In this document: one piece after another, positions 28,343-48,237 of the stretch
Numbering within the stretch: the first letter of the stretch is position 1
How the letters are laid out: every line of letters begins with the position of its first letter
Source of the DNA: Candidatus Fermentibacterota bacterium
GTDB taxonomy: Bacteria; JAFGKV01
Direction: 5' to 3'
DNA length: 64,000 nucleotides
NCBI GenBank assembly: GCA_016928395.1
Contig: JAFGKV010000114.1
Coordinates: 1-64,000 of the forward strand
The notes under the pieces: model-generated
What the model was told of the DNA's origin: nothing
Seen by the model: only the letters and a program-made list of their open reading frames with translations
Databases searched by the model: none
Program-made: the position numbers and the translations under genes

Positions 28343-29524
28343 ATGAGGATGGCGATGCGCATACACAAGCCGCTCGAACTCTGCCGGGTTGACCGTGCGT
28401 TGATTTTGGCCGCCCTGCCCATGCTGTTCTATGCGGTGGGCACGGCAGTAGTGGCCCGTGACCTCCAATCCCACCTGCCGTCCGGTCCTTCCCGGCTGGT
28501 CTTCTCGTCGGCCGTCGACTGGGCATTGGGCGTGGTAGCCGGATATGCTGTTCTCATCGCACTCGGTGTTGTGCTGCGTCACCGATCGCCATCGAGCGGT
28601 GTCTTCGTGTACATGACCCTGGTCTACTTCGCCATCAATAACGCGATTCTGGCCACGTTCATCGGGCCACTCTCCAGCCCGCCCTGGCTCTCCATCCTGG
28701 GGCTGGCAGTACTAGGCCTTCTCCTCCTGGGTTCCCGGGAAGTCTTCACCAGTATCAGCATCTACCTGGTGGCATTGGGCCTCATCCATGCGCTGGGGAC
28801 GACCGGCAGGCTTCCTTACCGGTACATCTTCGAGGAAGGCGCGGCGCCTTCGTGGTGGATGTGGCGGATGGCAGTGGTCACCATTGCCAATACCGTGATC
28901 ATCGTTCTGGTTACCGCCTATGTCGTTGCGGCATGGCAGCGGCGGGAATCCAGTTTCCGCGATCTTTCCAACCAGGATGATCTCACCGGCGTGGGGAATC
29001 GCCGCTTTCTCAGCCATGCTCTGCGCACTGAATTCTCCCGCGCCCGCCGCTATGGCCGGGAGATGACCTACGCCATTGTCGATCTTGACCACTTCAAGCG
29101 TGTGAATGACCGGCACGGCCATCCCATTGGAGACTTCGTTCTCAGGGCAACGGCAAAGGCTTTGACCGCCTCCACGCGGGAAAGCGACACGGTCGCCCGC
29201 TGGGGAGGCGATGAGTTTGTGCTGCTCTTGCCCGAAACAGGCGTGTCAGGTGCACAGGAACTGGCCGAACGGTGCAGAGCCGCCATTCGCGCGACCGTGG
29301 CCGCCGAGACGGGGATAGGGATCACCAGCAGCGTCGGCATCGCCTCAATGCGCCACGAGGGTCTTCACTCCCCGGATGATCTGGCTCGGATCGCGGACAC
29401 AGCCCTGTACGCGGCCAAGCAGGCCGGTCGGAATCGCGTGGTGATCGCCGCCGAGCCGGCGAAAGACGGCGTCGTCACCTTTCCTCGAATCGTCTCTCAG
29501 AATCCGCGCCCCAACGCTATGTGA
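28343..29524 (+). CDS. Membrane diguanylate cyclase (GGDEF domain)
   Basis: A 393-residue protein from ATG 28343 (ATG 28355, with GAGG before it, is an alternative). Six hydrophobic helices fill residues about 20-190 in a MASE-like sensor. The GGDEF domain (about 225-380) starts NQDDLTGVGNRRFL and has D-L-D-H-F-K-R-V-N-D-x-H-G-H. The active site WGGDEFVLL is intact, so it should make cyclic di-GMP from two GTP. The inhibitory I-site RxxD is also intact (RESD, five residues before GGDEF), so product inhibition is expected. It is preceded by a sigma-54-type promoter. Its last 28 bases overlap the convergent Omp85 gene. Confidence 0.92.
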   Translation: MRMAMRIHKPLELCRVDRALILAALPMLFYAVGTAVVARDLQSHLPSGPSRLVFSSAVDWALGVVAGYAVLIALGVVLRHRSPSSGVFVYMTLVYFAINNAILATFIGPLSSPPWLSILGLAVLGLLLLGSREVFTSISIYLVALGLIHALGTTGRLPYRYIFEEGAAPSWWMWRMAVVTIANTVIIVLVTAYVVAAWQRRESSFRDLSNQDDLTGVGNRRFLSHALRTEFSRARRYGREMTYAIVDLDHFKRVNDRHGHPIGDFVLRATAKALTASTRESDTVARWGGDEFVLLLPETGVSGAQELAERCRAAIRATVAAETGIGITSSVGIASMRHEGLHSPDDLARIADTALYAAKQAGRNRVVIAAEPAKDGVVTFPRIVSQNPRPNAM

Positions 29525-31113
29525 ACGCGACCCTGGAGCGGATCACTCCCGCGGGGCACGCCGTAGGCTAGTTCGATCATGCCCACTGTGGTGCGAGCCA
29601 TGATACCCATCCCGACCCCCAGCAGTCCTTCATGGCGCTCACCCACTTGATACACGCCACAGTCGACAAACGCGAAAAGTGATGATGCACCGCGCGATAC
29701 GCGATGCAACTCCATCACGATCCACCCGGCGCTCTCTGTACGGAATTGGGCTTCACGGTAGCCGCGCACGGTCCGTGCGCCACCCACCGAGAAGCGCTCG
29801 GGAAGCGGAAGCTCCTGACCTCCGTGTACGGCATGCCGCGCAGCACCACGAAGGACTGCCAGGATCCCCGACCCGAGCCCCAGCGATCGCCGGACGTCGA
29901 CCTCGACACGTACGACAGGCGTCACGATCTCTGAGGCAATCTCACGCAGTTCCTGGTACCCGACCCTCAGACTCACCCAGGATCCCGTGGGAGGGACATC
30001 GTCGCCATGCTCCCTGTTCCAGATTCCCTTTCCCCACGCCTCATCCGCCCTGGTTGAGGCAAGAGGGGCCCCTTCGCCCGGAATCACCCGCCGGCCACGA
30101 TACCCGATGTAGCCCCTGAAGCTGCCTCCGAGGTCCCAACCAAGGGCGACCGTTCCATCCCGCTCCACCCAGAGGGTGTCTTCCACCACCTGATTGATGC
30201 CGATCTCCAGCGACGGCGGCAACCCAAGAATCCACGGCTCACGGTACGTCAGCGCCAAGTCGGTTCGCCCAGCGCCACGGGCTTCCCATCGGAACGATGC
30301 TTCCCGGGCCGTGCCCGCGATGTTGCGAAATGCGGCCTGCACACTGCCCACCACCGCGCCGTCCCTTGCAAGACCCACCGCGCCCCGGGCTGTATGGGTA
30401 ACCCGCTCCACCAGGGGAAACCGCACCACAACTCCACCAGGGTCGATGCCGCGCAGAAGTACGGGTTCACCAACCGAGGAGTAGTACCCGGTTTCTCGCA
30501 GTCGAGCCACCGCACGATCCATGCCGCTCTGACGGTACGGCATGCCTGGCCTGATTCCCGCCAGTTTCGACACTACGGAAGCTCTCGTTCTCACAGAATC
30601 CGATACCTCGATGCGCTCGATGACACTCCGCGGGCCTGCAGTCGCGCCGACGCGCAACGTCACCATCCCGGCACTGCTGTCCACATCCACATGTCGAACG
30701 CCGAGAGAAACAAATGGAAACCCCGCCTCCTCATGCGCTCCGAGGAGTGTGCTCAGCCTCGCAGTGACGACGCCTGCCTCCCACGGACTCCCTGCCAGAT
30801 CCTGCAACCGCAGCACTGCATCAGCGGCATCCGACGAGGCGCCATCCACCACGATACGAGCCACAGTGTATCGCCGCCCGGGAACAAGGCGAAGCGTACG
30901 CACGCCTTCCGCCGCGGTGGTCTCGAATCGTGCCTCGAAAAAACCGTTCCTGCCCAATTCGACCAGTATATCCTCCTTGACGCAGGATTCCCGCCCACTC
31001 TCGGTGGTGTCGGCACATGGGGCAGCGAATCGGGAGGCGGCCGACTCCGGTAGGATGTCACTCATCTCCCACACGGTGGCCATGAGCCCCATCGCTACGA
31101 CTGCGCAGATCAT
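29497..31113 (-). CDS. Omp85-superfamily outer-membrane protein (BamA/TamA-like)
   Basis: A 538-residue protein with start ATG 31113, which overlaps the TGA of the preceding gene. MICAVVAMGLMATVW is the signal-peptide core. Residues about 45-250 contain two or three POTRA-like modules (LRLVPGRRYTVARIVVDG; GPRSVIERIEVSDS...LAGIRPGMPY). The barrel carries the family hallmark RFSVGGARTVRGYREAQF (loop 6 VRGY motif, about 465-480) and ends with aromatic HIALGRGF. It is shorter than BamA (five POTRA, about 800 residues) and closer in size to TamA. It probably inserts or secretes a partner, perhaps the giant barrel encoded just upstream. Last gene of the eleven-gene operon. Confidence 0.87.
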   Translation of the reverse strand: MICAVVAMGLMATVWEMSDILPESAASRFAAPCADTTESGRESCVKEDILVELGRNGFFEARFETTAAEGVRTLRLVPGRRYTVARIVVDGASSDAADAVLRLQDLAGSPWEAGVVTARLSTLLGAHEEAGFPFVSLGVRHVDVDSSAGMVTLRVGATAGPRSVIERIEVSDSVRTRASVVSKLAGIRPGMPYRQSGMDRAVARLRETGYYSSVGEPVLLRGIDPGGVVVRFPLVERVTHTARGAVGLARDGAVVGSVQAAFRNIAGTAREASFRWEARGAGRTDLALTYREPWILGLPPSLEIGINQVVEDTLWVERDGTVALGWDLGGSFRGYIGYRGRRVIPGEGAPLASTRADEAWGKGIWNREHGDDVPPTGSWVSLRVGYQELREIASEIVTPVVRVEVDVRRSLGLGSGILAVLRGAARHAVHGGQELPLPERFSVGGARTVRGYREAQFRTESAGWIVMELHRVSRGASSLFAFVDCGVYQVGERHEGLLGVGMGIMARTTVGMIELAYGVPRGSDPLQGRVHIALGRGF

Positions 31114-34100
31114 CAGAAGTACGCTACCAATTCCATCGAACCTTCTCGCACTTTGCCCCTGCCCGCCTCTGATCCGACGCTCAGGCTCATGGTCAAGGTC
31201 AACTTCTCCTGTATCTTGTGTTCGCCCCCAACCTTGATGAGACGGGAGAAACCCTCTTGATCCACGCGGCGCAGCAATGGAGCCAACGCAGACCACGGCC
31301 CATCGGCCCGGCGCCATGCAAGCTCACCATCGATGCGGAACCGTCCTCTCCCGGGCAACGCCAGCCGAAGCCCGGGTGTGACCACGGCCGCATGGAGCAC
31401 GGCCTCGGTCGCTTCTCTGCTCTCGCCCGCCACTTCTCGGACAACGTCTTCCCGGGAGAGCTCGCCGCTTCCCACCACATCCAACCGGCCTGTTAGGGGC
31501 AGAGAAACAGCCGGCGAGAATCCCCAGGTCTTCGACCTCGCCACCACCGTGCTTCCTCCTGAGAGCGCGGGACTCTCCCGTTCCTCGGATGAGGCGCGAT
31601 ACACGGCCATGTCGGTGGAAATCATCTTCCATCTCGCTCCCCTCGCCCGCACGGCGCATCGCGTCTGATGACGCCTGGTGCGCTGGTCTACCCGCCGGTT
31701 ATCCGCATCGGCAGCGTAGGCGAACTGGGTTGCGATGGCGAACTCGCCGCCCGCGGGCCGAACCTGCATGCTGCCGTCTATTCGACTCACGCGCCGTAGT
31801 GTCGTGGAATCGCACTTCACTACTGCAGGGCGCAACAGGTAGAGATCCGTTCTCCTGTCTGACCGGCTGGTGACCTGGATACGACCGGTCACGTCAGCAT
31901 TGATGCGCCGTCGCCACTCCGGGCCACGGCCCCCTGGTGCCAGGCGGAGCCCAACGATCCCCTCCACCAAATCTGTCCTCTCGGCGCCCCCGGAGGGCAC
32001 CAAGACCTTTTTGTGAGTACCCAGTTCTGTGCCCACCCACGTTCCCAACGAATCATACTCGCCCACATTGGTCTCCCACGATTCCTCCGGGACCAGTTCT
32101 TCGACGAGCTGTTCCGATTGTCGGCCCGAGATCTTGTAGTCCAGCTCCAGCCTGGGCCCCCAGGACACCGGCAGTGCGGATACCCGTGCGGTGCCCAGAG
32201 AGGACACAATGTCCTCGGGCAGAACCTTGCCTTGATCCGCCAAGAGCATCCGGTAGGCAGTGGCATAGCGGAGCCGGGTGTGGTTGAAGTCAACCCTGGC
32301 CGTCGCCTTGACACCCGCGTTCCCCGCCACGCCTATCTCCCACCACCGTCCTGACGAGCTGCGCATCCATGCGTCGGGATCCGTGATATGCTCTTTGGTG
32401 ATTCGGCTGCCGGTTACCACCCTTGCCGTTGTAGCGGAGCGGCCGATTCGTGCGCCCGCGCCGATATCCATGTACCCCCGGCCCGAGAGCCCGCTGTTCG
32501 CCTCTCCCTTCCACATCACGAGAGGACTCCAGAAACCGAAAGGACGATCCAGCGCGCCGTCGGTCCACCACCGCGTGTCGTCTTTGGCCACTGATCGATT
32601 GAAGCGCCCAGTCATTGAATAACCGCCCGGACCCAGAATCGTCCCGGTCACTTGAGCCCGGCGGGATACTGTCGTCCCCCGGCGCATTCCACCGAGCACG
32701 AGGCCGAGGCGACCGTCCCGGGGCAGCCCGAAGGATAGATCCAGCGTGGCTTCGTCCTCGGAGCCAGTGTCGTCGATACCGCTCCAATCCCGTGTCCATT
32801 CCACCGGCCTGGCGCGGCCGGGCGTCGCGAATCCCGCTCCCTGAGACCGCCACGTTGCGCCCCCCTGCCACCACGGAAAGACTCCTCCCCCACCATGCGC
32901 CGACAGATGGGCGTACACTGCGCCCTGGGTATTGTCCCGGTCATCCCGTGAGGATAAGGTATTAGCATCCCGTACCCCCGCCGCTGCCTCTACATCCAGA
33001 CGCATGCTGTCCTCTCCCACGCGAATACCGACAACCGCGCTTTCGTGCGACCGGGGTGCCTGTACGGTTCGCCAGGCCACGTAGTCCCCGTGCCCGGGCC
33101 CGACATATGCCCAAAAGGCGGCGTCAACGCGCACATAGTCGCCTCCTGCATCACGGTAGAACGTCGCCTCAAAGGCCCCGGCGCCCCCCCCGAGCGAGCT
33201 GATCCGCCCCATGTCCACGGGAGTGTGCGGCGCCCGCGGGATCTCCCCCCCCCGCACTAAGATCACATCCTCACGGCGGTCGTATGCGCCTGCGCCCGTG
33301 CTTTCGGCTCGGGCTGCGAAAGGCCCGCCGCCCGGACCGTAGTACTCGAAACGCGAGCCGACCCGGCGATAGGAGCCCGAGGCCCCGACCGAATCGAACA
33401 CTGCGTCCCATCCTCCCCCATCGTGGGGCACGAGAAAGCCAACGTGCAGGGTGTCATACGTGCCCGCGTTCAATCCGACAAACCGGTAGGTGGGCGCCCT
33501 GGCCCGTTCGGGATCGTCGCCCGCGGCCCCCAGCACCGCCCGCTCCTCCTCACCCAGAATCCAGTCCATGGGCTGGGATGCATCGTCTGCTTCACGAAAC
33601 GCTGCGAATCGTATGGTTATTGCGTCGGAGATGCTGCGGACTGCCGTTGCCAGGTACACGGTGCGACGGTAGCTCTCCGCGGTGTACTGGAAGTCGACGC
33701 TGATGCGCGACAGTCCGGTAATTGGGCGGCGCTCGGTAAACGTCACCTCGCCAGTCGAATAGTCGATGGTGTAGTCCTTGTCACTGCCTCGGGCCACGGG
33801 CGATCCGTCGACCCAGACCCGTTCCGTTCCCGCCAGGATGACGACGGTACTGGCCCCGCCAGAGAGATGGCGCGCCAGGTAGTAGGGACCTTGGGCGCCG
33901 TCGATGCCGGTGAATTCGACACTCACGAAGGTCCCCCCGGTGGAAGCCGCAGCCACGTCTCCGGACCACTGCCCGTGGGCCAGCGTACCGGCAACGCCCT
34001 GCATCTTTCTCTCAAGGCTCAAGAACCTGAACCCTTCTGTGGCGATGGCGCAATCGCCCACGCTAAGACTGCTCTCCTTCCGCTTCAGCTCGATGACCAC

Positions 34101-34718
34101 ACGGTCAATGTCACGCAGCTCCTGGGTCGTGCCCTGAGGCTGGATGGGCGTACTCTGGTCACTCAGTGAGGCGGTGACCTCCACGTCGCCCGCCAGCCTC
34201 CCCTGAAGCTGTACCTGTAATGCCTGGTCAAGGCTGGGATCTTTGCCTGAGCCGAACCGTACGCCGATGGTCTTGGTGCCGGCGACCTGGAGGGAATGCT
34301 CGGACGAGAGATCGGCGGGGTATTCCGTGGCGGGAGCGGCCGCCGTCACTGCCACAATCTCTTCACCCGGCGAAGGCAAAGCGCGGCGCTGGAGGTGAAC
34401 CGGTATGCCCAACGGCAGAAAACGATACTGGATGCGTACCGTGCTTTCGGCCATGCTGGGGAGGAAGTGAATGCGATTGCGGAAGTCAAGACGAAACCCA
34501 GCGCCGGCGGAGAGAAGAGAGTCGGCCGCCCACACCACGACGGATTCGCCCACGACAAAGGAATCCGGCAGCGCCACCTCCCGAGGCACCGGTGGTCCTA
34601 ATGCGATAACCCTCTGGATCCCTGGCGCCGCCTGGGCATTGAGCCCGAGGAAAAGCAGAAGGATGCAACAACGGATAGCCCAGCCCCTGCCTGACGGCGC
34701 CCGTTCTTCCCTGTCCAC
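31113..34718 (-). CDS. Very large outer-membrane beta-barrel candidate, function unknown
   Basis: About 1201 residues from GTG 34718. A signal peptide spans about residues 13-31 (GWAIRCCILLLFLGLNAQA). Most of the chain alternates polar and hydrophobic residues, as in long beta structure. Two segments stand out: VEVTASLSDQSTPIQPQGTT with ELRDIDRVVIELKRKESSLS, and YTIDYSTGEVTFTERRPIT with ISVDFQY. Such blocks also occur in giant barrels of the SprA kind, but I cannot prove homology. The C-terminus ends in LVAYF, an outer-membrane beta-signal. There is no TonB box, plug domain or CarboxypepD-like region, so it is not a standard TonB-dependent receptor. Stop overlaps the Omp85 gene (TGATG). Confidence 0.65.
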   Translation of the reverse strand: MDREERAPSGRGWAIRCCILLLFLGLNAQAAPGIQRVIALGPPVPREVALPDSFVVGESVVVWAADSLLSAGAGFRLDFRNRIHFLPSMAESTVRIQYRFLPLGIPVHLQRRALPSPGEEIVAVTAAAPATEYPADLSSEHSLQVAGTKTIGVRFGSGKDPSLDQALQVQLQGRLAGDVEVTASLSDQSTPIQPQGTTQELRDIDRVVIELKRKESSLSVGDCAIATEGFRFLSLERKMQGVAGTLAHGQWSGDVAAASTGGTFVSVEFTGIDGAQGPYYLARHLSGGASTVVILAGTERVWVDGSPVARGSDKDYTIDYSTGEVTFTERRPITGLSRISVDFQYTAESYRRTVYLATAVRSISDAITIRFAAFREADDASQPMDWILGEEERAVLGAAGDDPERARAPTYRFVGLNAGTYDTLHVGFLVPHDGGGWDAVFDSVGASGSYRRVGSRFEYYGPGGGPFAARAESTGAGAYDRREDVILVRGGEIPRAPHTPVDMGRISSLGGGAGAFEATFYRDAGGDYVRVDAAFWAYVGPGHGDYVAWRTVQAPRSHESAVVGIRVGEDSMRLDVEAAAGVRDANTLSSRDDRDNTQGAVYAHLSAHGGGGVFPWWQGGATWRSQGAGFATPGRARPVEWTRDWSGIDDTGSEDEATLDLSFGLPRDGRLGLVLGGMRRGTTVSRRAQVTGTILGPGGYSMTGRFNRSVAKDDTRWWTDGALDRPFGFWSPLVMWKGEANSGLSGRGYMDIGAGARIGRSATTARVVTGSRITKEHITDPDAWMRSSSGRWWEIGVAGNAGVKATARVDFNHTRLRYATAYRMLLADQGKVLPEDIVSSLGTARVSALPVSWGPRLELDYKISGRQSEQLVEELVPEESWETNVGEYDSLGTWVGTELGTHKKVLVPSGGAERTDLVEGIVGLRLAPGGRGPEWRRRINADVTGRIQVTSRSDRRTDLYLLRPAVVKCDSTTLRRVSRIDGSMQVRPAGGEFAIATQFAYAADADNRRVDQRTRRHQTRCAVRARGARWKMISTDMAVYRASSEERESPALSGGSTVVARSKTWGFSPAVSLPLTGRLDVVGSGELSREDVVREVAGESREATEAVLHAAVVTPGLRLALPGRGRFRIDGELAWRRADGPWSALAPLLRRVDQEGFSRLIKVGGEHKIQEKLTLTMSLSVGSEAGRGKVREGSMELVAYF

Positions 34719-34764
34719 CGCGCCTAAACCGTTCCGTCCACGGAACCGCGGGCGCGCCGTCGCG

Positions 34765-35619
34765 CTACGGCACCTCGGCCAGGGCAAGCCCCACGATCGT
34801 GTCGCTCTCACGTTCCGCGACAAGAAGCATGCCATCCGTGGCGAAACACACGGCGGACGGGCTGGCGAGTTGCGGCATGCCGGCAGGCGGGCATGACAGA
34901 TCGTAGACGACACCGTTCTTGAACACCCTGACGACATGTGCCTCCTCGTCAACCATCGCGCCGAGCCCGTCTTTGCGAATGTCCACGCTCCCCGGCGATC
35001 CCCCCACCGCGATGGCTCCCCGATGGTTGCCGTGTGTGTCAAAGAAGTGCACAAGGCCTCCAGCCTGATCAGACACCGCCACACGTCCAGCCGCACATGC
35101 GAGGCCGGCCGGTATGAGCGGGATTCGCGGTTCGTCTCCTGCCCCGCTGAGTCGGCGCAAGCCATCGAAGGGGTCTGTTACCATGATCGTTCCTGAGCCC
35201 TCGTCGGCGACAAACACCCGCCCGTCGGGCAGCGAGGCCACTGCCAGGGGTTTCCAAGGCCACACTCCGCCACCGGGGCCACGGATCTCCGTCACGGGCA
35301 CACCGGCTCTGTCGACCTTCAGCATGCGTGAACCGTCGGTATCAGCCAGATAGACGAACTGCCCCCCCGGATCCGTGACTGCCACGCGGTCTGAGAACTC
35401 CATCCATCCCTGCCCATTCCCACCGAAGGAGCGGACATGCCTGCCGTCCATAGAAAAGAAGTGAAAACGGGCCACTCCACGGTCTCCCACCCAGAAACCA
35501 CCATGGGGACTCCGCGCCAACGCCTCCGGGCCATGCAGGATGCCCGGCCCAACCACCACGGATGACGACATCACCGACACGGTCTCCATAGCGGCGGCCG
35601 TCAGCAGCGCAAGTATCAT
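34765..35619 (-). CDS. Secreted NHL-type beta-propeller protein
   Basis: A 284-residue protein starting MILALLTAAAMETVSVMSSS at ATG 35619, which overlaps the tonB stop (ATGA). The rest shows six-bladed propeller repeats: VGDRGVARFHFFSMDGRHVRSFGG, DRVAVTDPGGQFVYLADTDGSRMLKVD, PLAVASLPDGRVFVADEGSGTIMVTD, GRVAVSDQAGGLVHFFDTHG and SAVCFATDGMLLVAERESDT. Propellers of this class bind proteins, sugars or peptidoglycan, and few are enzymes. Its place between TonB and the giant barrel suggests a periplasmic or surface part of the same complex, which is inference. Confidence 0.78.
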   Translation of the reverse strand: MILALLTAAAMETVSVMSSSVVVGPGILHGPEALARSPHGGFWVGDRGVARFHFFSMDGRHVRSFGGNGQGWMEFSDRVAVTDPGGQFVYLADTDGSRMLKVDRAGVPVTEIRGPGGGVWPWKPLAVASLPDGRVFVADEGSGTIMVTDPFDGLRRLSGAGDEPRIPLIPAGLACAAGRVAVSDQAGGLVHFFDTHGNHRGAIAVGGSPGSVDIRKDGLGAMVDEEAHVVRVFKNGVVYDLSCPPAGMPQLASPSAVCFATDGMLLVAERESDTIVGLALAEVP

Positions 35620-36308
35620 CGGAGAACAAACTCCACGGTCACGTCGCCGGTGGCGTCGGCGGATCCCGTCACCGATTCGAAACGCCATTGTCGAAGAGCC
35701 TCTATGGCGGCGTCATCCAGGGCGGGGTGAGCTTTGAGTACCAGAGTCGCGACCCTGACGTTCCCGTCCGGCGTGACCACCAGACGAACCTTGACAATCC
35801 CCCCGCTGGGCGCGCCCGGGGGAAAGACCGGGTCGACCATGTAGATCGGCGTTCGGGTCGAGAGCGTCCCTTCCACTCTGACTTTGACTCCCGATCCCAC
35901 CGCCGGCGAGGACGTGGTCACCGGCATCGGAGCCAGTCGTGCGCCCGGAGAGGGGCCGGGAGGGGCAGGATCGGACGGGGAGAGCAAAGGGCTGGGGGGA
36001 CGGTCCGAAAGAGCAGAGGAGGCCGGCAAGTCGGGAAGAAGTGCTTCGTTCCGCTCGGAAGCCGGCAGCGGCGCGATGTCACCGGTGCGTGCCCGCGGCC
36101 CTGTGGACTCCCGGGGCGGTGCCTGCGGCGCCGGCTGTTCCTCTGCCGAGGAGATCTCTCCAGCCAGCAACTCCACCTCCAGAGGCGGCGCCGCCATGGG
36201 CCGCACAGAGACATGAACAAGGAGGAAAAGCACGGCAAGGAGACCGTGCAACGCCACGGCGGCTCCCACTCCCACATGAGAGGGGGAACACCACGGATCG
36301 CGTCTCAC
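35616..36308 (-). CDS. TonB-like energy transducer
   Basis: A 230-residue protein. An N-terminal membrane anchor spans about residues 12-34 (VGVGAAVALHGLLAVLFLLVHV), keeping the conserved histidine of the TonB helix (ALHGLL). A long Pro/Ser-rich periplasmic linker (about 45-145) follows, then a TonB C-terminal domain (about 150-230) with PIYMVDPVFPPGAPSGGIV, VKVRLVVTPDGNV and ALDDAAIEALRQWRFES. TonB carries energy from ExbB-ExbD to outer-membrane proteins. Start is GTG 36308 overlapping the exbD stop (GTGA). Confidence 0.9.
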   Translation of the reverse strand: MRRDPWCSPSHVGVGAAVALHGLLAVLFLLVHVSVRPMAAPPLEVELLAGEISSAEEQPAPQAPPRESTGPRARTGDIAPLPASERNEALLPDLPASSALSDRPPSPLLSPSDPAPPGPSPGARLAPMPVTTSSPAVGSGVKVRVEGTLSTRTPIYMVDPVFPPGAPSGGIVKVRLVVTPDGNVRVATLVLKAHPALDDAAIEALRQWRFESVTGSADATGDVTVEFVLR

Positions 36309-36727
36309 CGGGCATCCTCCGGCTTCGACGCGATAAGCAACCGCTGGTACCCGGCGCGACGACCTGCATCCAGTACGCTCACCACCCAGTGGAACTGGCT
36401 CACCCGATCTGCCCTGATGATGAGCGAGGGTACTTCCTGCACGGGATCCAACGCGTGACGCAACTCCTCTTCCAGGCGTTCCGCCCCGATCCTCCGGGCG
36501 CCGAGAAAAATCTCACCGCGCTCGGTCACCGTCACCACGACTCGGTTGTGGGGCTCCGGCTCTGCGGTCTGAGTTCGTGGGAGGTCTATCTTGATACCCG
36601 GCTGCACCACGAAACTCGATGAGAGAAGGAAGAAGATCAGGAGCAAAAACACGATATCGGTAAGCGAGACTGCCGGGATGGAGGAGATCCGACGCCGTGA
36701 CGTCTCAAACAACGACCGGGCCATCAT
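36305..36727 (-). CDS. exbD: ExbD/TolR-family protein
   Basis: A 140-residue protein. The single transmembrane helix holds the essential proton-carrying aspartate in SLTDIVFLLLIFFLL (about residues 21-35). A periplasmic TolR-like domain follows (VVTVTERGEIFLGARRIG, LIIRADRVSQFHWVVSVLDA). With ExbB it forms the proton-driven stator that energises TonB. ATG 36727 or 36724 are preceded by AGGGTGAAG, inside the end of exbB, giving an overlap of about 23 bases. GTG 36733 is a further option. Confidence 0.92.
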   Translation of the reverse strand: MMARSLFETSRRRISSIPAVSLTDIVFLLLIFFLLSSSFVVQPGIKIDLPRTQTAEPEPHNRVVVTVTERGEIFLGARRIGAERLEEELRHALDPVQEVPSLIIRADRVSQFHWVVSVLDAGRRAGYQRLLIASKPEDAR

Positions 36728-37340
36728 CTTCACCCTGAGTCGGCACCAGGCGCAGCAACTCCACCGCTGCGCGACGCATCTGGTGAGCAAGGCCTTCGAT
36801 CTCGCCCACCAGCCAGTTGTTGCCGATGAGCGCGGGTATGCCCACCACCAATCCTCCGGCCGTGGTGACCAAGGCCTCCCAGATTCCTCCAGCGAGGATA
36901 CTGGCATCAACCTGCCCGGCATGGGTCTGCACCTGCATGAAGGCCCGGATCATGCCCGTCACCGTGCCTAAGAACCCGACCATGGGCGCGGCGGCCGCCA
37001 CGATGGCGAGCCAGCCTATGCGCCGCTCAAGAGTGTCGATCTCCAACTGCCCCGCCATGGCCATGCCGTCCCGCGCGACATCGCGATTGCCGCCGGCCTC
37101 CAGCCCCGCCAGTAACACCTTCGCTACGGGTGCGGTGCTTCGCCTGCACCGGGCCTGTGCTACTTCTTCCTGGCGCTCCTTGACCAGCGCCAGGATTTCC
37201 CAAGAGATCCGGTCAGTCCCCTTCCGGGCGCGCCGCAACACGATGTAGCGCTCGATGAACACCGCCAGGGCCACCAGTGACCCCAGCGCGATGGGCACCA
37301 TGAAGTAGCCGCCCTTGATCACCAGCGTGAGAAGATTCAC
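36705..37340 (-). CDS. exbB: ExbB/TolQ/MotA-family proton channel
   Basis: A 211-residue inner-membrane protein. The first helix is about 7-30 (GGYFMVPIALGSLVALAVFIERY); the second and third are about 106-130 and 150-175, with AAAAPMVGFLGTVTGMIRAF and GGIWEALVTTAGGLVVGIPAL, the most conserved ExbB stretch. It starts at GTG 37340, whose G is the last base of the TAG of the upstream gene, with AGGAGG nearby. ExbB rather than TolQ is favoured by exbD and tonB directly following and by the lack of tolB and pal. Confidence 0.93.
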   Translation of the reverse strand: MNLLTLVIKGGYFMVPIALGSLVALAVFIERYIVLRRARKGTDRISWEILALVKERQEEVAQARCRRSTAPVAKVLLAGLEAGGNRDVARDGMAMAGQLEIDTLERRIGWLAIVAAAAPMVGFLGTVTGMIRAFMQVQTHAGQVDASILAGGIWEALVTTAGGLVVGIPALIGNNWLVGEIEGLAHQMRRAAVELLRLVPTQGEDDGPVVV

Positions 37341-38767
37341 TAGGCTCCCTCCTGCCCGTAGGGCCGTTTGAGGCTCCATCCTAATCCGATCGCCACCATC
37401 GTGCGAGGACGCGCGGTGAGGCTGAACCCCCACCCACTGGATCCTCGAGCTATCGCTTCCCAACCCCCTCCCAGAGGCATCGCCACATCCAGCGTGACAC
37501 CGCCTGATGCCGGGAGTGAAGCGTCCCACCCATGCAGTCCTGTTTCTCCTTCCACCGTTGCCCGGAGCCGGGGACGCTGCCCGCGGGCAGCAGACACCCA
37601 CCACTCCATTTCCGGAATGAGGGGCCACTGCGCCGAGTACGGCAGAGAGCCAGCCCGGGTGGTGACCTCCAGTCCATCCAACGCCACGCCGCCACTGATC
37701 CGCCCTCGCGAGTCATGCCACGACACGGCCAGGCTTACCTTGAAGCCTTCTCCGGCCAGCGATTCCGTTACCCAGAGGTCGTCAACTTCCCGCCAGGCAG
37801 GCGCATGGCCAATGTGTCGATCCTGGAGAGTCCCAACGACGGTCATCCGGGGCGACGCCCGAACAGCCACGGTCGCGTCCACACTCCAATCCGTCACACA
37901 CGCATGGCCAGAGGTCGTGGGATGGGCTGCGGGGAAGGCCTCACGCAGCGAGGTCTCATCGAGAAACGAGAGTGTCCGCTCTGCCGAAATCGCCCACGCG
38001 GTGCGTCCCAACGAGAGGGGACCGAGGCGAGTGGATGCCTCCATGATCAGGCGAGTCGTGTCACCATCGTCAACCATCATGGGACCGGCGCTGACCATGA
38101 TCCGGGGACTCTCGTGGCACCAACGCACCATGCCGCCCGCGACATGATCCCCCCCCGTCACCTCGAAGGGAAGATGCACTCCCGGCACATGGCCGGATAC
38201 CCAGGCCTGACCATGGAAGGTGCTCTTCTCCCCCTCCCAGCCGCTCCCCGAGACCATGGCCCGGGTATGGTACAGGCCCAACGGGACCTCAGCCCAGAGA
38301 CGTCCATGGACCCAGCCCGGTGCGACCTCGATCTCGTCCAGCCGATCAGCCCAGTGCTGCACCCTTAGTCCCACGGACCCCCACGCGCCCGCCGTCAGAG
38401 CGCCGGCGCGCATGCCCCGGCGCTCCAGACGCCCCGCATCGAAACTCCAGAGCCGGGCCGCCACCCCGCCGCCGGCTTCTCCGAGACCGGCCGTAATCAC
38501 TCCCGCGTACACGGGACCGGCGGCCGCGGACAGGCTGAATCCTACCGGGGGAGGCCGGTGAAGCGGCCGGACCGGGGCCTCCCGGTGCGAATCGCCCATC
38601 TCCGGCCTCGGCAACTGAATCGGGGGGATTGCCCGAGGAAGCAGCGGGGCAGACCAGAACTCCCTCTGGGGAAGATCAAGCTGTGGGGAGCCCTTCACCA
38701 CCAGATGGGGCAGGTCTAGCTCGCCGGCCGCCATGACGAAGATCAGGCCGGCGACAAGGCTGCTCAC
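37340..38767 (-). CDS. Outer-membrane beta-barrel candidate, function unknown
   Basis: A 475-residue protein with a signal peptide (SSLVAGLIFVMAAG, cleavage near AAG-ELDLP). After a Pro-rich segment (about 20-75) the sequence is beta-rich with many Gly, Trp and alternating hydrophobics (LRVQHWADRLDEIEVAPGW; FSLTARPRTMVAIGLGWSL). It looks like a mid-size barrel or beta-sandwich. I find no known domain. Start GTG 38767 overlaps the stop of the TPR gene (GTGA), and its stop overlaps exbB. Direct coupling to exbB suggests it works with the TonB system. Confidence 0.62.
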   Translation of the reverse strand: MSSLVAGLIFVMAAGELDLPHLVVKGSPQLDLPQREFWSAPLLPRAIPPIQLPRPEMGDSHREAPVRPLHRPPPVGFSLSAAAGPVYAGVITAGLGEAGGGVAARLWSFDAGRLERRGMRAGALTAGAWGSVGLRVQHWADRLDEIEVAPGWVHGRLWAEVPLGLYHTRAMVSGSGWEGEKSTFHGQAWVSGHVPGVHLPFEVTGGDHVAGGMVRWCHESPRIMVSAGPMMVDDGDTTRLIMEASTRLGPLSLGRTAWAISAERTLSFLDETSLREAFPAAHPTTSGHACVTDWSVDATVAVRASPRMTVVGTLQDRHIGHAPAWREVDDLWVTESLAGEGFKVSLAVSWHDSRGRISGGVALDGLEVTTRAGSLPYSAQWPLIPEMEWWVSAARGQRPRLRATVEGETGLHGWDASLPASGGVTLDVAMPLGGGWEAIARGSSGWGFSLTARPRTMVAIGLGWSLKRPYGQEGA

Positions 38768-41610
38768 GGGCCGGCTCCAACGCCTTCGCCCGCCAATCGC
38801 CGCGCAGCCTCATTGGCTGGAGCCGCCAACGAATCCTGAGGGGAGAGGTAGGCCAGCCGGAGATAGAGCCTGCGTGCTTCACTGATGCTGCCCAAGGCTT
38901 CCTGAACCCGCGCGGCAATCCAGTAGACCCGTGGGGAGGGCCCGGTCGAGCGTTCAAGAAGCGGCGAAAGCCATGCCCAAGCGCTGTCGGCGCGGTCGGC
39001 GGCCAAATGCGTCTCCGCCCCGGCCAGGACTGCCTTGTCGCGCCACTCCACGCCGCCGGTGCTGGCCAGTGTCGCCCAGACGGCAATGGCCGAATCGGAG
39101 GAATCTTCAAGGGCGAAGCCCAGTTCATACCGTGCGGCGTCTCCCAGCTCGCTGCCTGGATAGAGGGCCAACATCTCTCGCAATAGCCTCGCCGCGGTAG
39201 CGGAATCCCGGGGGCGGGAGAGCCGCGCAGCCTCGTAGAGCCCCTCTGCGGCTTCGCGGGCATCGGGCCAAAGGCGAGCCAAGGACTCAAATGCCTCCTG
39301 CGCCTCGTCCACCCGCCCGGAACGGGCAAGACTCCACGCGGCACGCAGATCTGCCCAAGGCGTGCCAAGACTTCGATACAAGGGCAATGCATCCTCGTAT
39401 CGATTGAGCCCGAAAAGAAGGTCTGCCTTTGCCTGGATCAGCCCGCTCCTCCTGCTCTCGTCCTGCGCCCGATTCAGCAGGGTATCACAGAGGATGATGG
39501 CCTGCCCGGCATCCGACGACTGCAATTCCGCCCACAACGCTCCCTGGACGGCATGGGCCCACAGGTCAGAGTCAGGATAGCCTTGAACCAAGGAGAGATA
39601 CGTGGTACGGGCAGTAGCATACTCACCACGGTTATACTGACAATCTCCGATCCGATAGAGGGCATTGTCCCGCACTGTACGATCCCGTTGAAGGGCGACT
39701 ACCCGTCGGTATTCGACCTCCGCCTCGTCGAATCTGCCGGCGCGGAAGAGGGCCTCAGCCTTCTCGAACAGCGCATTGTCGGCAATGTCTTCGGTGGGCG
39801 ATGCATGGAATAGCCTGTCCAGCGTGGCAATAGCCTCATCAGTCTCACCGGCCAGCGACAGGGCCCGCCCCAGCCCCAACAAGGCTTCATCACCAATCTC
39901 GCGGCGGGCAACAATCTGGGTCGCCGCCCGGTACGATGCTGCGGCCTCGCGGTAGAGTTCCTGGGCCATGAGCACGTCCCCCGCGCGAAGAGTTGCCCTG
40001 GCAGCAGTCTCTGATCGCGGGTCGGCCGCCGCGGCTTCCCTGAAGCCCGCCAAAGCGTCGTCGTTCTTCCCCATGGAAAGAGAGGCCCATGCCCTGCCGA
40101 AGGCTGCGTCAGCCCGCTCCCGAGCCGTCGGCATGCCCGGAAGCGCCTCCCGATAGGCGGCCTCCGCCTCGGACCACCTCCCCTGACGGGCAATGGCCTC
40201 AGCTTTCCAGAATGCAATCCTGGCCGCAAGGCTGTCGTTCACCGACCCGCTGAAGGCACCGGCCAGACGCTCCACCCGATCCCATGACTCGGCACGATAA
40301 GCGGCAACCAGGGCCCGATATCCTAGATCGTGCGCCAGGTCTCCTTGCGCACGATCACGGGCATCGAGGAAGTACTCAGATGCATCGCTCCACCGGCCCT
40401 CGGCCGCCGAGATCTCAGCATAGAGAGCAAACGCCTCCACGCTGTCTCCGCGGCTGTGCAGGCGGGCCAAACCCCGGTCAAGGGTCTGCCTCGCCTCCCC
40501 CAGCCGGTTAAGATCGCGCTGGAGGCTCGCCCGAAGGAGAATGGCCCTGGCCAGCAGCGTCCGGTCGCTGATCCCGGCAGTTTCCACCGCCAGGAGCGAA
40601 TCACCCGCCCCGGGCCGATCTGTCCTCTGAAGTGCGCTGGCCAGCAGGACTGCTGCCTCGCCCCGCTCGCTGCCCTCAAGCGTGCGCATGGCGCCTGAAA
40701 GCAACGCCGACGCCTCTTTGGGCCGGTCTTCCTCCATGTACATCCACCCCAGCAGCCTCACCGATTCAAGCCCGCGCTCGGCGAGAACCGCGATGGCCTC
40801 ATCGTGCCGGCCCTGATCCCAGATGCTGCGCGCCTTGAGTTCCCGCACCACTCGCGAATCCGCTCGTTCTGGCCAGCGCCGCGCCAGTGTCTGGAGGGTT
40901 ACCTCGGTATCCGCGGGACGCTCCGTCTCCACCAATAGCCTCGCCAGGGACACTATGTCATCAGGCCGTGCATCGGGGCTGGCTACCAGCCTCGTCAAGA
41001 CGTCTCTGGCCTGCTCGTCGCGCCCCATGCGCTGCAGGGCCTCGGCCTGGCGTCGCAGTGCCCATCCGTGGAGATCACCGGCGGGAAGCTTCTGGGTTGC
41101 CTGGCTCAGGAGTTCCGCGGCGCGGGGAAACGCATCTCGCCTGAATGCCGCCTCGCCGGCCCAGTAGATAGCCTCACCTGCTCCATGAGAGGCCTCGGCG
41201 GCAGCCCGAAGATACAGGCTCTCGGCTTGAACGAACGAGCCCAGCTCGAACAGCGTCGCAGCGAGACGGAGGAGGGCTTCACCTGTCCATGGTGAGACCG
41301 GATGCGTGGCAATAAAGGATTCCAGACGTGTGCGAGCGCGTACCCATTCACCCAGTTGCACCCAGCAGTCTGCCGCCAGAAAGGCGGCTTCCTCGGCATC
41401 GGGATGTGATCGACGCTGAGCGACGAAGCGTTCGAGTTCATCAGCAGCCAGACGGTACTCGCCCTGGGAGTAAAGGTGCCGGGCGAAGTCAAGATCGAGC
41501 CGGGCACCGGCATCGGGTTGCGCGCGTAGTGGTGACACCGATGGCATGAGGACCACGAGGAGCCCGACAGCCCCGATGACCGCACCGCGGGGATGAAAAC
41601 GCCGCATCAT
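38764..41610 (-). CDS. Large exported TPR protein
   Basis: About 948 residues. Signal peptide about residues 8-32 (GAVIGAVGLLVVLMPSVSPL, cleavage near RA-QPDA). Nearly all of the rest is TPR, around twenty repeats; the first resemble the outer-membrane BamD/YbgF type (LDFARHLYSQGEYRLAADEL, HPDAEEAAFLAADCWVQLGE). Such periplasmic TPR scaffolds assemble envelope complexes. Starts at ATG 41610 or 41607 overlapping the stop of the lipoprotein gene. Its stop overlaps the barrel-like gene. A scaffold for the TonB-linked complex is a reasonable inference. Confidence 0.8.
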   Translation of the reverse strand: MMRRFHPRGAVIGAVGLLVVLMPSVSPLRAQPDAGARLDLDFARHLYSQGEYRLAADELERFVAQRRSHPDAEEAAFLAADCWVQLGEWVRARTRLESFIATHPVSPWTGEALLRLAATLFELGSFVQAESLYLRAAAEASHGAGEAIYWAGEAAFRRDAFPRAAELLSQATQKLPAGDLHGWALRRQAEALQRMGRDEQARDVLTRLVASPDARPDDIVSLARLLVETERPADTEVTLQTLARRWPERADSRVVRELKARSIWDQGRHDEAIAVLAERGLESVRLLGWMYMEEDRPKEASALLSGAMRTLEGSERGEAAVLLASALQRTDRPGAGDSLLAVETAGISDRTLLARAILLRASLQRDLNRLGEARQTLDRGLARLHSRGDSVEAFALYAEISAAEGRWSDASEYFLDARDRAQGDLAHDLGYRALVAAYRAESWDRVERLAGAFSGSVNDSLAARIAFWKAEAIARQGRWSEAEAAYREALPGMPTARERADAAFGRAWASLSMGKNDDALAGFREAAAADPRSETAARATLRAGDVLMAQELYREAAASYRAATQIVARREIGDEALLGLGRALSLAGETDEAIATLDRLFHASPTEDIADNALFEKAEALFRAGRFDEAEVEYRRVVALQRDRTVRDNALYRIGDCQYNRGEYATARTTYLSLVQGYPDSDLWAHAVQGALWAELQSSDAGQAIILCDTLLNRAQDESRRSGLIQAKADLLFGLNRYEDALPLYRSLGTPWADLRAAWSLARSGRVDEAQEAFESLARLWPDAREAAEGLYEAARLSRPRDSATAARLLREMLALYPGSELGDAARYELGFALEDSSDSAIAVWATLASTGGVEWRDKAVLAGAETHLAADRADSAWAWLSPLLERSTGPSPRVYWIAARVQEALGSISEARRLYLRLAYLSPQDSLAAPANEAARRLAGEGVGAGP

Positions 41611-42212
41611 TCGCTCGTGACAAAGAAGAGGGCCAGCAACGTGCCTACCACGCCGGCGACCACCATGGGCGCCACCACACCTGGCGACGTAGGCACTGCT
41701 GCCGAAGGTGTGAAAACAGGATCGGACAACCCTGCCAATTCGACGGCCGGTGTCCACTCCTGCCGGCGGTCCACGGCCCTGGTGCTGGCAATCACGTCGC
41801 CGCCCGGCCCGAGCAGCCGCGCCACCAGACTACACGACCCATCGCGCAGAACCCAGGGTTTCATCATGATCCCCCGTCGGTCAACTTTCCGATGGCGAAC
41901 CCCCAACTCCACGATGCGCACGTGGAGTGTGTGGGTCGTGGAGTCACGTCCACTCTCCCGCAGCGCAAATCCGCGACCCAGCAGCTCGCCCTCCAGCAAT
42001 GAACGCACAAGCCATGCGCCTTCGCCCCCGCCCGTCATCTCAAGACTGAGGCCTTCTTGTGGGTACGCCTTACATAGTGCGGTCACGCTGTCCACCGCGA
42101 CGGCAGCCGCCCTGCTCACCATCTCGAGATCGGTAGGCTGCGGACGAAGCTGGGCAGAACCGGATGCGCAGGCCAGGAACCCCAACCCGACCAAGGCGAG
42201 GTAGCGCCTCAC
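41607..42212 (-). CDS. Lipoprotein with a C-terminal transmembrane segment, function unknown
   Basis: A 201-residue protein. RRYLALVGLGFLACASG is a lipoprotein signal with lipobox LAC (cysteine about residue 15). The core (about 30-165) has EGAWLVRSLLEGELLGRGFAL, and HTLHVRIVELGVRHRKVDRR, which recall periplasmic lipoproteins with a GNA1162/CsgG-like alpha-beta fold, but I cannot assign it. The last 20 residues (PMVVAGVVGTLLALFFVTSE) form a hydrophobic helix, unusual for a lipoprotein. GTG start overlaps the upstream stop, and its stop overlaps the TPR gene. Confidence 0.65.
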   Translation of the reverse strand: MRRYLALVGLGFLACASGSAQLRPQPTDLEMVSRAAAVAVDSVTALCKAYPQEGLSLEMTGGGEGAWLVRSLLEGELLGRGFALRESGRDSTTHTLHVRIVELGVRHRKVDRRGIMMKPWVLRDGSCSLVARLLGPGGDVIASTRAVDRRQEWTPAVELAGLSDPVFTPSAAVPTSPGVVAPMVVAGVVGTLLALFFVTSE

Positions 42213-42727
42213 GGCTCCTGCTCCAGATCATACAAGTCGGTAATACGGAAGCGATCGTCGGCGCACCTCGTAATCACAAACTCCGCCCAGAAGTAGCCGA
42301 CGCCTTTCTCGAAAAGCTGGTCGGCGGTCTCCCAGACGAGTAGATCGCACTCTCGGTACAAACGCCACGTCTCCGGATCGTCGCTGATTCTGGTCGCATA
42401 GTCTCCCACCATGGTCAGCTCGATGTGATCCATGGTGCTGAACATCTTGCGGTGCATCCGCTCCTCCTCCACCTTGCCCCAGGAAGGCGCCGGCCAGATG
42501 TCGTTCACGTCGCGGGGGACCAGATGGAACTCAAAGGTGTCCACGAGGCATTCCAAGTAGCGGTCGATATCTTTGCGTTGATAGGCGTTGGCCAGTTGCA
42601 CGACGACGCCTGCAGGGGTTGCCAGCAAATCCTGGGGGTCACCATCATCCTTGTCCGGGTCAAAGATGCAACCGGCAAGGCATAGGGCCGCCACCGGCAG
42701 GATCACGCCCACTTTCCATCTGGTCAT
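42209..42727 (-). CDS. Lipoprotein, NTF2-like fold possible
   Basis: A 172-residue protein with a classical lipobox LAGC (MTRWKVGVILPVAALCLAGC; cysteine 20), then an acidic linker DPDKDDGDPQD and a domain opening TPAGVVVQLANAYQRKDIDR. That opening, with YLECLVDTFEFHLV, resembles NTF2/SnoaL-type domains. Aspartate residues right after the cysteine (CIFDPD) are not at +2, so outer-membrane sorting is expected. ATG 42727 overlaps the TGA of the AAA+ gene (ATGA). No function can be given. Confidence 0.72.
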   Translation of the reverse strand: MTRWKVGVILPVAALCLAGCIFDPDKDDGDPQDLLATPAGVVVQLANAYQRKDIDRYLECLVDTFEFHLVPRDVNDIWPAPSWGKVEEERMHRKMFSTMDHIELTMVGDYATRISDDPETWRLYRECDLLVWETADQLFEKGVGYFWAEFVITRCADDRFRITDLYDLEQEP

Positions 42728-44322
42728 GGCTCCTCCTTATCCTCTGAGTTACCCGCGGACTTCGACCGGTTTGAACCCGTAGGCAGCGGGGGTTCACGGT
42801 GGGCATACGTGGTCTTGATCATCGCATCAAGGTAGGCACGGGGATCTTTGCATGCCGCGAGGCCAAGTCGCAGGCTCCTCTTACCCGCCAACTGCAGGCC
42901 GTACTCCAAGTCCGCGAACCGCTCCTGGCAGAATGCCTTGACATCCTGACCATCCTGCGTTGCGCGGTCAATGATCCAGCGACGAGCCGGGGGAGTAATA
43001 TCGATTCGGATCCCGGTGCGTTCCCGAAACTGGCTCGCAAAGACCTCAAGCAGCCCTTTCACCAGCACCTGCCGAAGATCTCCCTCGGGATCAAGAACTG
43101 TGTCCTTCGTCACCACGACCCGGGGAATTCCGGAACCGGGGATTCCATGCTCGAAGGGCAGTAGGCATCGCTCCAGAATCGACTTCAGGCCCCGAGCGCC
43201 AGTCCCCTCGGCGGACGCACGATGGGCGATCTCCCGGTATGCATCATCGGCAAACTCCAGGGTTACCCCATAGGATGCGAAGTCCCGTATCTTGCCTTGC
43301 GTGAGTGGGCTCAGCGGAGTCCTGAGGATCTCCAGGAGCTTATCTTCATCCAACGGGTGGAACACCACGACGATGGGAAGCCTGCCGATGAACTCCGGTT
43401 CAAACCCGTACGCGATAAGGTCTTCAGAGCGAACCTGGGAGAGAATCCAAAACGGATTCTCAAACTTCGCCTCTTCAGTAGACTCGAAGCCGATGACCCG
43501 TTTGCGCAGGCGACGGCGTATGATATCGTCCAGCCCGACAAACGCACCGCTCATGATGAAGAGTATGTTGCGGGTGTTAATCTTCTTCCGGTGTACGCGG
43601 CCCGTGCGCTGGGCCTCCATCATCGCCTCCATCTGACTGGCCAGATCGAATGGCGCCCGCAGATCGACTTCCGTCTCCTCCATGAGCTTCAGCAGGTTCC
43701 GCTGCACACCCGTACGGGACACATCCGGTCCCTGTGTGACACCACTGGCCGCGATTTTGTCGATTTCGTCAAGATAGATGATCCCATGCTCCGCCAGAGA
43801 AACCATACCGTTGGCCTGGTGGGCCAGATCCCGGACCAACTGCTCGACATCGCCACCCACGTACCCGGTCTCGCTGAACTTGGTGGCGTCACCCTTGACG
43901 AACGGCACCCCCAGTTCTTCGGCAATCAGCCTGACGATGTAGGTCTTGCCCACACCCGTCGGGCCGATCATGAGCATATTCGCCTTCACCTCCCCCACGA
44001 GACGCCGCTCAGCAGAGGCCGATTCCCAGGCTACCCTGTGAAAATGCGTACAGACCTTCGTTGCCATGGCCCTGGTAGCCTCGCCCTGCCCGATGACGAA
44101 CTGCCGGAGACTGCCTTCCAGGCCGGCAGGCAACACGTCGAACCGAATCCTCTGGGGTTCATCCTCCGGCTCCTCCGCCTTCGGTGGCGCCGGACGCGCC
44201 GCAGGCATCATGACCTTCACACCGTACTGGTCACCGATAAAGCCCTGCAGCTTCTCCTGGAGTTTCTCCAGGACACGCTCGAAGCCCTCGGCACCCTCTT
44301 CCCTTGTCGTCTCGTCACTCAT
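42724..44322 (-). CDS. ClpX-like AAA+ ATPase lacking the zinc-binding domain
   Basis: A 532-residue protein starting at ATG 44322 with AGGAAGG six bases upstream. The N-terminal zinc domain of ClpX is replaced by a coiled segment (about 12-28, GFERVLEKLQEKLQGF) and a Pro-rich linker. AAA+ motifs are intact: Walker A GPTGVGKT (120-127), pore loop GYVG (153-156), Walker B LDEID (184-188), PEFIGRLP (309-316) and sensor-2 GARGLK (375-380). IGF (277-279) sits where ClpX binds ClpP. After the small domain an extra C-terminal region of about 110 residues follows. First gene of the operon, so it may control levels of envelope precursors. Normal ClpX is presumably elsewhere. Confidence 0.85.
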   Translation of the reverse strand: MSDETTREEGAEGFERVLEKLQEKLQGFIGDQYGVKVMMPAARPAPPKAEEPEDEPQRIRFDVLPAGLEGSLRQFVIGQGEATRAMATKVCTHFHRVAWESASAERRLVGEVKANMLMIGPTGVGKTYIVRLIAEELGVPFVKGDATKFSETGYVGGDVEQLVRDLAHQANGMVSLAEHGIIYLDEIDKIAASGVTQGPDVSRTGVQRNLLKLMEETEVDLRAPFDLASQMEAMMEAQRTGRVHRKKINTRNILFIMSGAFVGLDDIIRRRLRKRVIGFESTEEAKFENPFWILSQVRSEDLIAYGFEPEFIGRLPIVVVFHPLDEDKLLEILRTPLSPLTQGKIRDFASYGVTLEFADDAYREIAHRASAEGTGARGLKSILERCLLPFEHGIPGSGIPRVVVTKDTVLDPEGDLRQVLVKGLLEVFASQFRERTGIRIDITPPARRWIIDRATQDGQDVKAFCQERFADLEYGLQLAGKRSLRLGLAACKDPRAYLDAMIKTTYAHREPPLPTGSNRSKSAGNSEDKEEP

Positions 44323-46587: not shown

Positions 46588-48237
46588 TCAGGGTGGTAAG
46601 GGTATGCCGAACTCACGCTCGCCGGCGCGGTGTGACCTGGCCATTTCCCATCCCTGCCCCTGCATCGCCATGACCAGATACGACCATTCATCCCCCGGGT
46701 CGGCCACGCCCTGGACCGTGGACCACGTCGTGGTGCCGCCCGGCACCACTGCCACGCGAAAGAGGAAGTCCGACGCTGCACCGGGAAGGAAGTACGCATC
46801 GTTGGCGGCCCCGAAGATCCAGTAGTGGTCTGAACCGGGGAGGTCGTTCCATGACAACTCCACGGTCGCGCCCATGAAGCGGGCCGAGAGGAAGAGCCGC
46901 GCTCCCGCAGGGAAGGCCCCCATGTCGGCGGCCGTCCCGTCGGGGTCGGCCGGGGAGGAGGGATCCCCCGCATTGATGCAGGGGGAGGGGAAATCCAGGT
47001 GAAAGTCACCGCTCGCGGGATCCATGAACACCGGGTCGAGGAGGAGATTGCCGTACACATCACATGAGTCACCGTTGGCATTGACGAACGCCACAACGCC
47101 AAACCCAGGAGGAGGAGTGCCCGCGATCATCGCTCCTTCGTTGCCCCACACATCAGAGTAGCCGATGCCGGCCTGGCAGTACCCCTCCAGAGAAAAAACA
47201 CTCCCAGCTTCGTTCCCCTCGATGATGCAGTCGGTAACAACGATCGAGCCATCCATCAGCACAATGGCCCCGCCCGAGCTTACATTCCGTACGATGGTGG
47301 CGCGCTCGAGCTGAAGGACGGTGTAGGCCGACGAGATCGCTCCTCCCCACACCGCCGCCTGGTTGCCCGTGAGAAGGACACAAGACATAGTGACCTCGTC
47401 GCTGCTGGTGAAACTGGCGCCGGCGCCGAAGGGGCTACTGTTGTCTCTGATTATCGTGAACTCGATCCTCGCCCGCGCGGCGCCGACATAGATGCCGCCG
47501 CCATCACCACTCGAATTGCCACAAATGGTACATCCCGCAATGAGCGGTGATGCCTCTCCCTCGACTGCGATTCCTCCCCCAGGACCCACCGCCACATTGT
47601 CGTGGATGAGGCATCCCTCAATCCGCGGCGTGCTGCCGCCATCGACATAGATCGCGCCCCCCGAACCAGCGGTATTGGCGAAGAACTCGCAGTCACGGAG
47701 GAGTGGGGCGCCGCCCTCGGCGTAGAACCCGGCGCCGTGGTTCCCCGCGTAGTTGGCGGTGAACACCATCTCTTCTAGCGTCGGTGAAGATCCAAGGCAG
47801 CGGACCCCGCCGCCGGAGCACCAGGGTCACGTGCCCGATGCGTGGCCGTTGCGGATCGTGAAACCCCGGATCACCGTGGTCGTGTCGACACCGCTGTACA
47901 CGCCGAGAACCTGCTCCTCCCCTCCCCCATCCAGAATCGTCAACTGGGGGCCGTGGGTGCTCATGAGCTTGATCCCCTGCTTCATGAGAGGCCAGACTAT
48001 GTTCTCAGGGTACACACCGGGAGCAACCAAAATGGTGTCGTACGACAGGGCGTACCACAGCGCAATGTCGATCTCATCGTGGTCACCGGGCACGTTGATG
48101 ACGCGACCGTGAACAACGCCGCATACGGCCATGACGCCCAGAGAACACACCGTGATACTCTGTCGTATCCCTGCACGGTAGCGGCTGCGCATCGTACGAA
48201 CGACTCGGCAGCAAAAGCTATTCGGCGGCTGCCGCAT
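46588..48237 (-). pseudogene. Secreted right-handed beta-helix protein interrupted by an in-frame TGA
   Basis: Two open pieces in the same frame are separated by one TGA at 47827-47829. The first (from 48237 with GGGGGAGG upstream, or 48192) has a signal peptide (SITVCSLGVMAVCGVVHG) and the opening of a Pbl/NosD-like helix: DTILVAPGVYPENIVWPL, TILDGGGEEQVLG and TTTVIRGFTIRNGHASGT. The second continues directly as PWCSGGGVRCLGSSPTLEEM and carries many helix rungs (SGGAIYVDGGSTPRIEGCLI, GDGGGIYVG), then a beta-sandwich tail to FGIPLPP. With the TGA read through, one normal protein of about 549 residues results. A nonsense mutation or a sequencing error is likeliest; recoding is possible but unproven. 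Confidence 0.75.

Follow-up and report, generated by a model that had tools for sequence, protein, structure and literature searches.

The window, a stretch of 64,000 nucleotides on contig C148 of a 4.79 Mb genome, carries at positions 29497-44322 a block of eleven genes, all on the minus strand, which opens with the start codon of a ClpX-like ATPase at 44322 and closes with the end of an Omp85 gene at 29497 (Table 1). Recomputation of the open reading frames bore out the layout described in a previous sequence-only reading. Block neighbours overlap by 1-4 bases, namely ATGA at the ClpX/Lp172 junction, GTGA at Lp172/Lp201, TGATG at Lp201/TPR, GTGA at TPR/B475, TAGTG at B475/ExbB, GTGA at ExbD/TonB, ATGA at TonB/NHL and TGATG at GB/Omp85. 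The exceptions are a 23-base overlap of ExbB and ExbD at 36705-36727 and a 46-base separation of the NHL propeller and GB, the sole gap in the gene chain. The families exceeding curated Pfam cut-offs in the block are Omp85, POTRA, NHL, TonB_C, ExbD, MotA_ExbB and TPR, and no Pfam family was recovered for B475, Lp172 or Lp201. Pfam also agrees with the earlier statement that a TonB-dependent receptor is missing, as no such domain was detected in the operon.

Table 1. Genes of the block in window coordinates, from the ClpX-like gene to the Omp85 gene.
Feature	Position	Strand	Basis
ClpX-like AAA+ ATPase	42724..44322	-	NCBIfam ClpX models; 68-76% identity to two relatives
Lp172, putative lipoprotein, LAGC lipobox	42209..42727	-	sequence; 54-72% identity to relatives
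Lp201, small exported protein, marginal lipobox	41607..42212	-	sequence; 42-62% identity to relatives
TPR997, exported TPR scaffold, 947 aa	38764..41607	-	TPR families; 45-63% identity to relatives
B475, beta-rich outer-membrane barrel candidate, 475 aa, mature N-terminus LPHLVVKG	37340..38767	-	sequence
ExbB/TolQ-type proton channel	36705..37340	-	PF01618, 96.1 bits
ExbD/TolR-type stator	36305..36727	-	PF02472, 87.8 bits
TonB-like protein, TonB C-terminal domain	35616..36308	-	PF03544, 33.7 bits (cut-off 24.6)
NHL-repeat beta-propeller, core gene	34765..35619	-	PF01436, 37.1 bits
GB, predicted compact SprA-like giant outer-membrane barrel, 1201 aa (mature 1171), core gene	31113..34718	-	AlphaFold, Foldseek
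Short Omp85 insertase or transporter with POTRA, 538 aa, core gene	29497..31113	-	PF01103, PF07244

Elsewhere in the window, the protein encoded at 15142-17976 unusually pairs TPR repeats with a carbohydrate-binding module, CBM60, at its C-terminus. A short distance upstream of the operon and on its strand, positions 46588-47769 encode a right-handed beta-helix protein whose repeats are Chlamydia PMP-like.

The operon is real and conserved. The window's phylum (Candidatus Eisenbacteria in our analysis) is represented by three genomes in the collection, and the gene order is kept in all of them as far as the contigs reach, with 33-76% identity between the block proteins and those of the two other members. 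In the genome of the same genus, one contig carries ClpX-Lp172-Lp201-TPR-B475-ExbB in this order, another TonB-propeller-GB and a third GB-Omp85, and in that of the same family two contigs carry ClpX to B475 and ExbB to Omp85, respectively. Owing to contig breaks, no single relative holds all eleven genes on one piece.

Several of the products score below the cut-offs of the well-established families that they resemble. The ClpX-like ATPase stays below the equivalog cut-offs (300 bits against 359 for NF003745, and 271 against 371 for TIGR00382); it is devoid of the zinc-binding N-domain and possesses an IGF-type loop, 'RVIGFES'. It may serve in cytosolic quality control of cargo, or have no part in the system. 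TPR997 reaches 72 bits with the SprE/PorW model NF052312 (cut-off 250), a weak and generic response; the model finds matches in 12 of 14 control genomes. Assignment as SprE/PorW was ruled out, as the matches are generic TPR and the genomes concerned encode further proteins of equal or better fit. The Omp85 protein shares with BamA and TamA the Omp85 barrel and POTRA, but is short, is linked to giant barrels and scores 62.3 bits with the BamA model TIGR03303, for which the cut-off is 297.

We next turn to GB, for which the predicted fold is that of a giant single-chain outer-membrane barrel. The AlphaFold model (101 sequences, mean pLDDT 81.5, pTM 0.78) displays a small beta domain followed by approximately 38-41 strand segments as assigned by DSSP, with two inserted regions, and 89 of the 101 homologues terminate in phenylalanine, as is typical for outer-membrane barrels. 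No solved homologue is identified by sequence up to E=1. In a Foldseek search of the PDB, SprA entries occupy ranks 1, 2, 3 and 5 (E 9e-10 to 8e-8), however with low TM-scores of 0.24, and the match may hence reflect giant-barrel architecture combined with one shared hairpin domain. The hairpin domain, with the motif DYxIDYxxGxITF, is homologous in the two proteins; hhalign aligns GB and SprA with P=97% over 84 columns, and the GB HMM retrieves SprA reading frames in many genomes (best E 6e-19). VIA-align superposes GB and SprA with a Z of 16.4 over 700 residues, and while porins and the alginate exporter AlgE attain similar Z, they do so over only about 220-310 residues, SprA alone covering some 700 among the VIA matches listed.

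SprA is an FCB-specific 36-stranded barrel of the type 9 secretion system (T9SS), and BAM is unusual in this superphylum (PMC12611786). SprA/Sov is the best structural match of GB and likewise a giant single-chain outer-membrane barrel, but GB is about half as long, has Omp85 and propeller partners of its own and coexists with a SprA gene. With the SprA model TIGR04189 (cut-off 200) GB scores 10.9 bits and other GB proteins 21-23 bits, none reaching the cut-off, and SprA_N (PF14349) finds no match on GB, as compared to 72 bits on the SprA of the window's genome. That GB is the SprA gene of the organism was ruled out by this separate 1892-residue SprA, located on contig C299. Being far below the SprA cut-off and accompanied by a full-length SprA in the same genome, GB is thus assigned to a SprA-like family rather than to SprA itself. 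The possibility that GB is a periplasmic protein of TamB type, encoded beside a TamA-like Omp85, was likewise discarded, given the modelled barrel and the phenylalanine at the C-terminus. The literature on T9SS outside Bacteroidota, on SprA-like proteins and on T9SS in Eisenbacteria, with most subscription papers and preprints outside its scope, yielded no description of GB.

The SprA-like GB family is widespread and the most interesting part of the block, with hundreds of loci across FCB phyla. Relatives were recovered in 66 of 290 genomes, in 57 of these with E up to about 1e-8 in reading frames of their own. A scan of the genome collection, with a six-sequence alignment as profile, gave at least 589 pattern matches, of which 568 were confirmed as relatives; the 80 that were kept stem from Ignavibacteriota, Calditrichota, KSB1, Zixibacteria, LCP-89, Latescibacterota, Gemmatimonadota, Chlorobi, Balneolia, Bacteroidota bins and Eisenbacteria. 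An NHL propeller-GB-Omp85 core recurs in phyla such as KSB1, Calditrichota, Zixibacteria and Gemmatimonadota, with GB directly preceded by the propeller in 54 of 110 loci and directly followed by Omp85 in 46 of 92. Where the flanks suffice on both sides (n=86), 37 loci hold the complete triad, seven the propeller only and seven Omp85 only, and the 35 with neither neighbour (~40%) are mainly from Ignavibacteria and Balneolia.

The remainder of the block behaves differently from this core. Across 123 GB loci, ClpX, the two small proteins, TPR and B475 accompany GB only in the window's phylum, and ExbB/ExbD are next to GB in three loci, limited to this phylum and one Balneolia contig, which rules out ExbBD as a general partner of GB. 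In the Balneolia case (L148:9923-15833), GB precedes an ExbB gene and two successive ExbD genes, apparently an independent link between GB and ExbBD. The block is composite, a widespread NHL-GB-Omp85 core joined to a lineage-specific remainder, and the eleven-gene set is a lineage-specific elaboration. The sequence-only reading had proposed one energised envelope complex, with gene order to be compared across phyla, and had named TonB and the barrels as separate common families with unrelated neighbours as an outcome against it. The proposal survives as one conserved operon but not as a widespread eleven-gene unit: the order is shared by the three genomes of the phylum as far as their contigs extend, the core is what is widespread beyond them, and GB indeed belongs to a common family that elsewhere has no TonB among its neighbours.

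Reviews place the T9SS in Bacteroidetes or FCB (PMC7463736; PMC11205867), and the window's genome holds SprA (463 bits summed), PorU-type C25 peptidases (23 C25 matches) and C-terminal sorting tails (72 matches). Among the 290 genomes, SprA exceeds the cut-off in 53 of the 57 with GB versus 15 of the 233 others. The corresponding Fisher p of about 3e-39 is uncorrected for kinship and overstates the evidence because the genomes are related; FCB-wide co-inheritance alone could yield such co-occurrence. The shuttle protein PorV is encoded upstream of GB in 12 loci, about 10% of GB loci, 11 of them also with a C25 protein like the sortase PorU, in the typical order PorU-PorV-M6i-DUF5683-propeller-GB-Omp85, and PorU at such a locus scores 518 bits, exceeding the equivalog cut-off. 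In a Latescibacterota genome where GB has no Omp85 neighbour, an Omp85 of the GB-neighbour family (L219:2484-4235, 416 bits) lies approximately 4 kb from SprA on the opposite strand. Secretion, one of the functions proposed earlier, is the best reading of the core, since GB combines a giant barrel of SprA type with linkage to T9SS genes.

In mechanistic terms, we see about an even chance that the NHL-GB-Omp85 core represents a second, compact SprA-type outer-membrane pore beside an FCB-type T9SS, energised by ExbBD-TonB in the Eisenbacteria lineage. GB would be exported via Sec and inserted into the outer membrane with the help of the neighbouring Omp85, and as a very wide barrel it could serve for the passage or display of large substrates, possibly in folded form, for instance CTD-tagged T9SS cargo. 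The propeller may be a docking or gating partner of GB, with TPR997 and the small proteins as a putative periplasmic scaffold, and in Eisenbacteria the ExbBD motor and TonB would most likely deliver proton-motive force to B475, with its TonB-box-like N-terminus, and/or to GB. If GB indeed has such a role, descriptions of the T9SS have missed some of its outer-membrane machinery, in the form of a second giant-barrel family that occurs together with SprA in hundreds of FCB genomes, at some loci beside the sortase and shuttle genes.

GB may alternatively be a housekeeping or structural giant barrel of T9SS-harboring bacteria, for glycan or lipid export or as a surface scaffold, and no protein translocon, with the Omp85 being BamA/TamA-like and ExbBD-TonB powering B475; we consider this somewhat unlikely. 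The triad following rplM-rpsI-rpsB-tsf-pyrH-frr in KSB1-type loci and related phyla is congruent with such a function, as are Omp85 and propeller genes that suit barrel assembly, the Z of AlgE and porins on a par with SprA, and the N-terminus of B475. On the other hand, the tight co-occurrence with SprA, the PorU-PorV linkage in about 12 loci and the alignment length achieved by SprA alone among the VIA matches listed are better accommodated by a SprA-type pore.

How such a pore might be driven is a separate question. ExbB-ExbD is an ion-driven stator pair, a property shared with the GldLM-GldKN motor and ring of the Bacteroidota T9SS, and with all three block proteins exceeding their Pfam cut-offs ExbB-ExbD-TonB in the GB operon is a concrete candidate motor. 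The T9SS of Bacteroidota is driven by GldLM (PMC8986121), and the energy is thought to detach the complex of substrate and carrier from the translocon, SprA (PMC10994853). However, models for GldM/GldN (TIGR03517, PF19841), which strongly divergent forms may escape, match in one of 50 genomes and not in the window's genome, and GldM_1st (PF12081) in one of 44. The positive genome is in both cases G205, which has a canonical SprA score (2705 bits) and a Bacteroidota-type set, and nearly all of the other 49 possess SprA and sorting tails, many also C25 peptidases. In G205, an Omp85 related to the GB neighbour (L218:1230-3095, 216 bits) is situated a few kilobases upstream of gldM-gldN. Given that a single genome of the 50 has recognisable GldM and GldN, a pore driven by ExbBD is worth testing, and the operon provides a testable candidate for the T9SS power source outside Bacteroidota, GldM/GldN being unrecognised in nearly all T9SS-bearing genomes examined. 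The broader notion that FCB phyla outside Bacteroidota perform T9SS-type secretion without GldLM, through a second compact SprA-like pore driven via ExbB-ExbD-TonB, is speculative and in our judgement improbable. Energisation by TonB is rather a lineage-specific proposal, as ExbB-ExbD-TonB joins GB in the window's phylum, in addition to the single ExbB-ExbD case in Balneolia.

TonB could engage B475, GB or both. Unlike a classical ExbB-ExbD-TonB system, the block has no plug-domain receptor, no plug domain being found in the operon by Pfam, and the proteins are instead linked to B475 and the SprA-like barrel. B475 harbors a TonB-box-like LVVxG just after the signal peptide, invariant in three of three homologues, and no obvious TonB box is seen in GB. 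LVVxG is weak as a TonB box on its own, since 20 of 1255 genes here have the motif within their first 45 residues, and the AlphaFold model of B475 from three sequences (pLDDT 37) is too poor to prove a barrel. Judged from its sequence, B475 nevertheless appears at least as good a candidate TonB client as GB, the possible client named in the sequence-only reading.

It is also possible, though again somewhat unlikely, that a TonB system with a small barrel and the GB triad are merely adjacent, as separate transcription units without shared function that join at the 46-base gap. Such an arrangement rivals the energisation step, not the SprA likeness of GB. The sole gap in the chain does lie before GB, congruent with ExbBD being next to GB in only three of 123 loci. 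Nonetheless, the propeller, the partner of GB elsewhere, overlaps TonB by four bases, the two parts have stayed joined while the proteins diverged to 40-60% identity, and the GB-ExbB-ExbD-ExbD order has apparently arisen independently in Balneolia, all of which argues against mere adjacency. That the block instead constitutes an Eisenbacteria family-specific energised envelope machine for motility or surface-polymer deposition, to which NHL-GB-Omp85 was added by operon fusion, is quite improbable: the phylum does keep the TPR-B475-ExbB-ExbD-TonB order within the limits of its contigs, and the composition presumably resembles AglRQS-Glt/Nfs of Myxococcus (ExbBD-type motor, TonB-like rod, TPR scaffold, lipoproteins and barrels), but no such family was matched in Pfam or NCBIfam. 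Further ExbD loci are present in the window's genome on contigs C56, C172, C215 and C259; that on C215 is arranged as ExbB-ExbD-ExbD, and that on C172 adjoins a run of giant TPR proteins.
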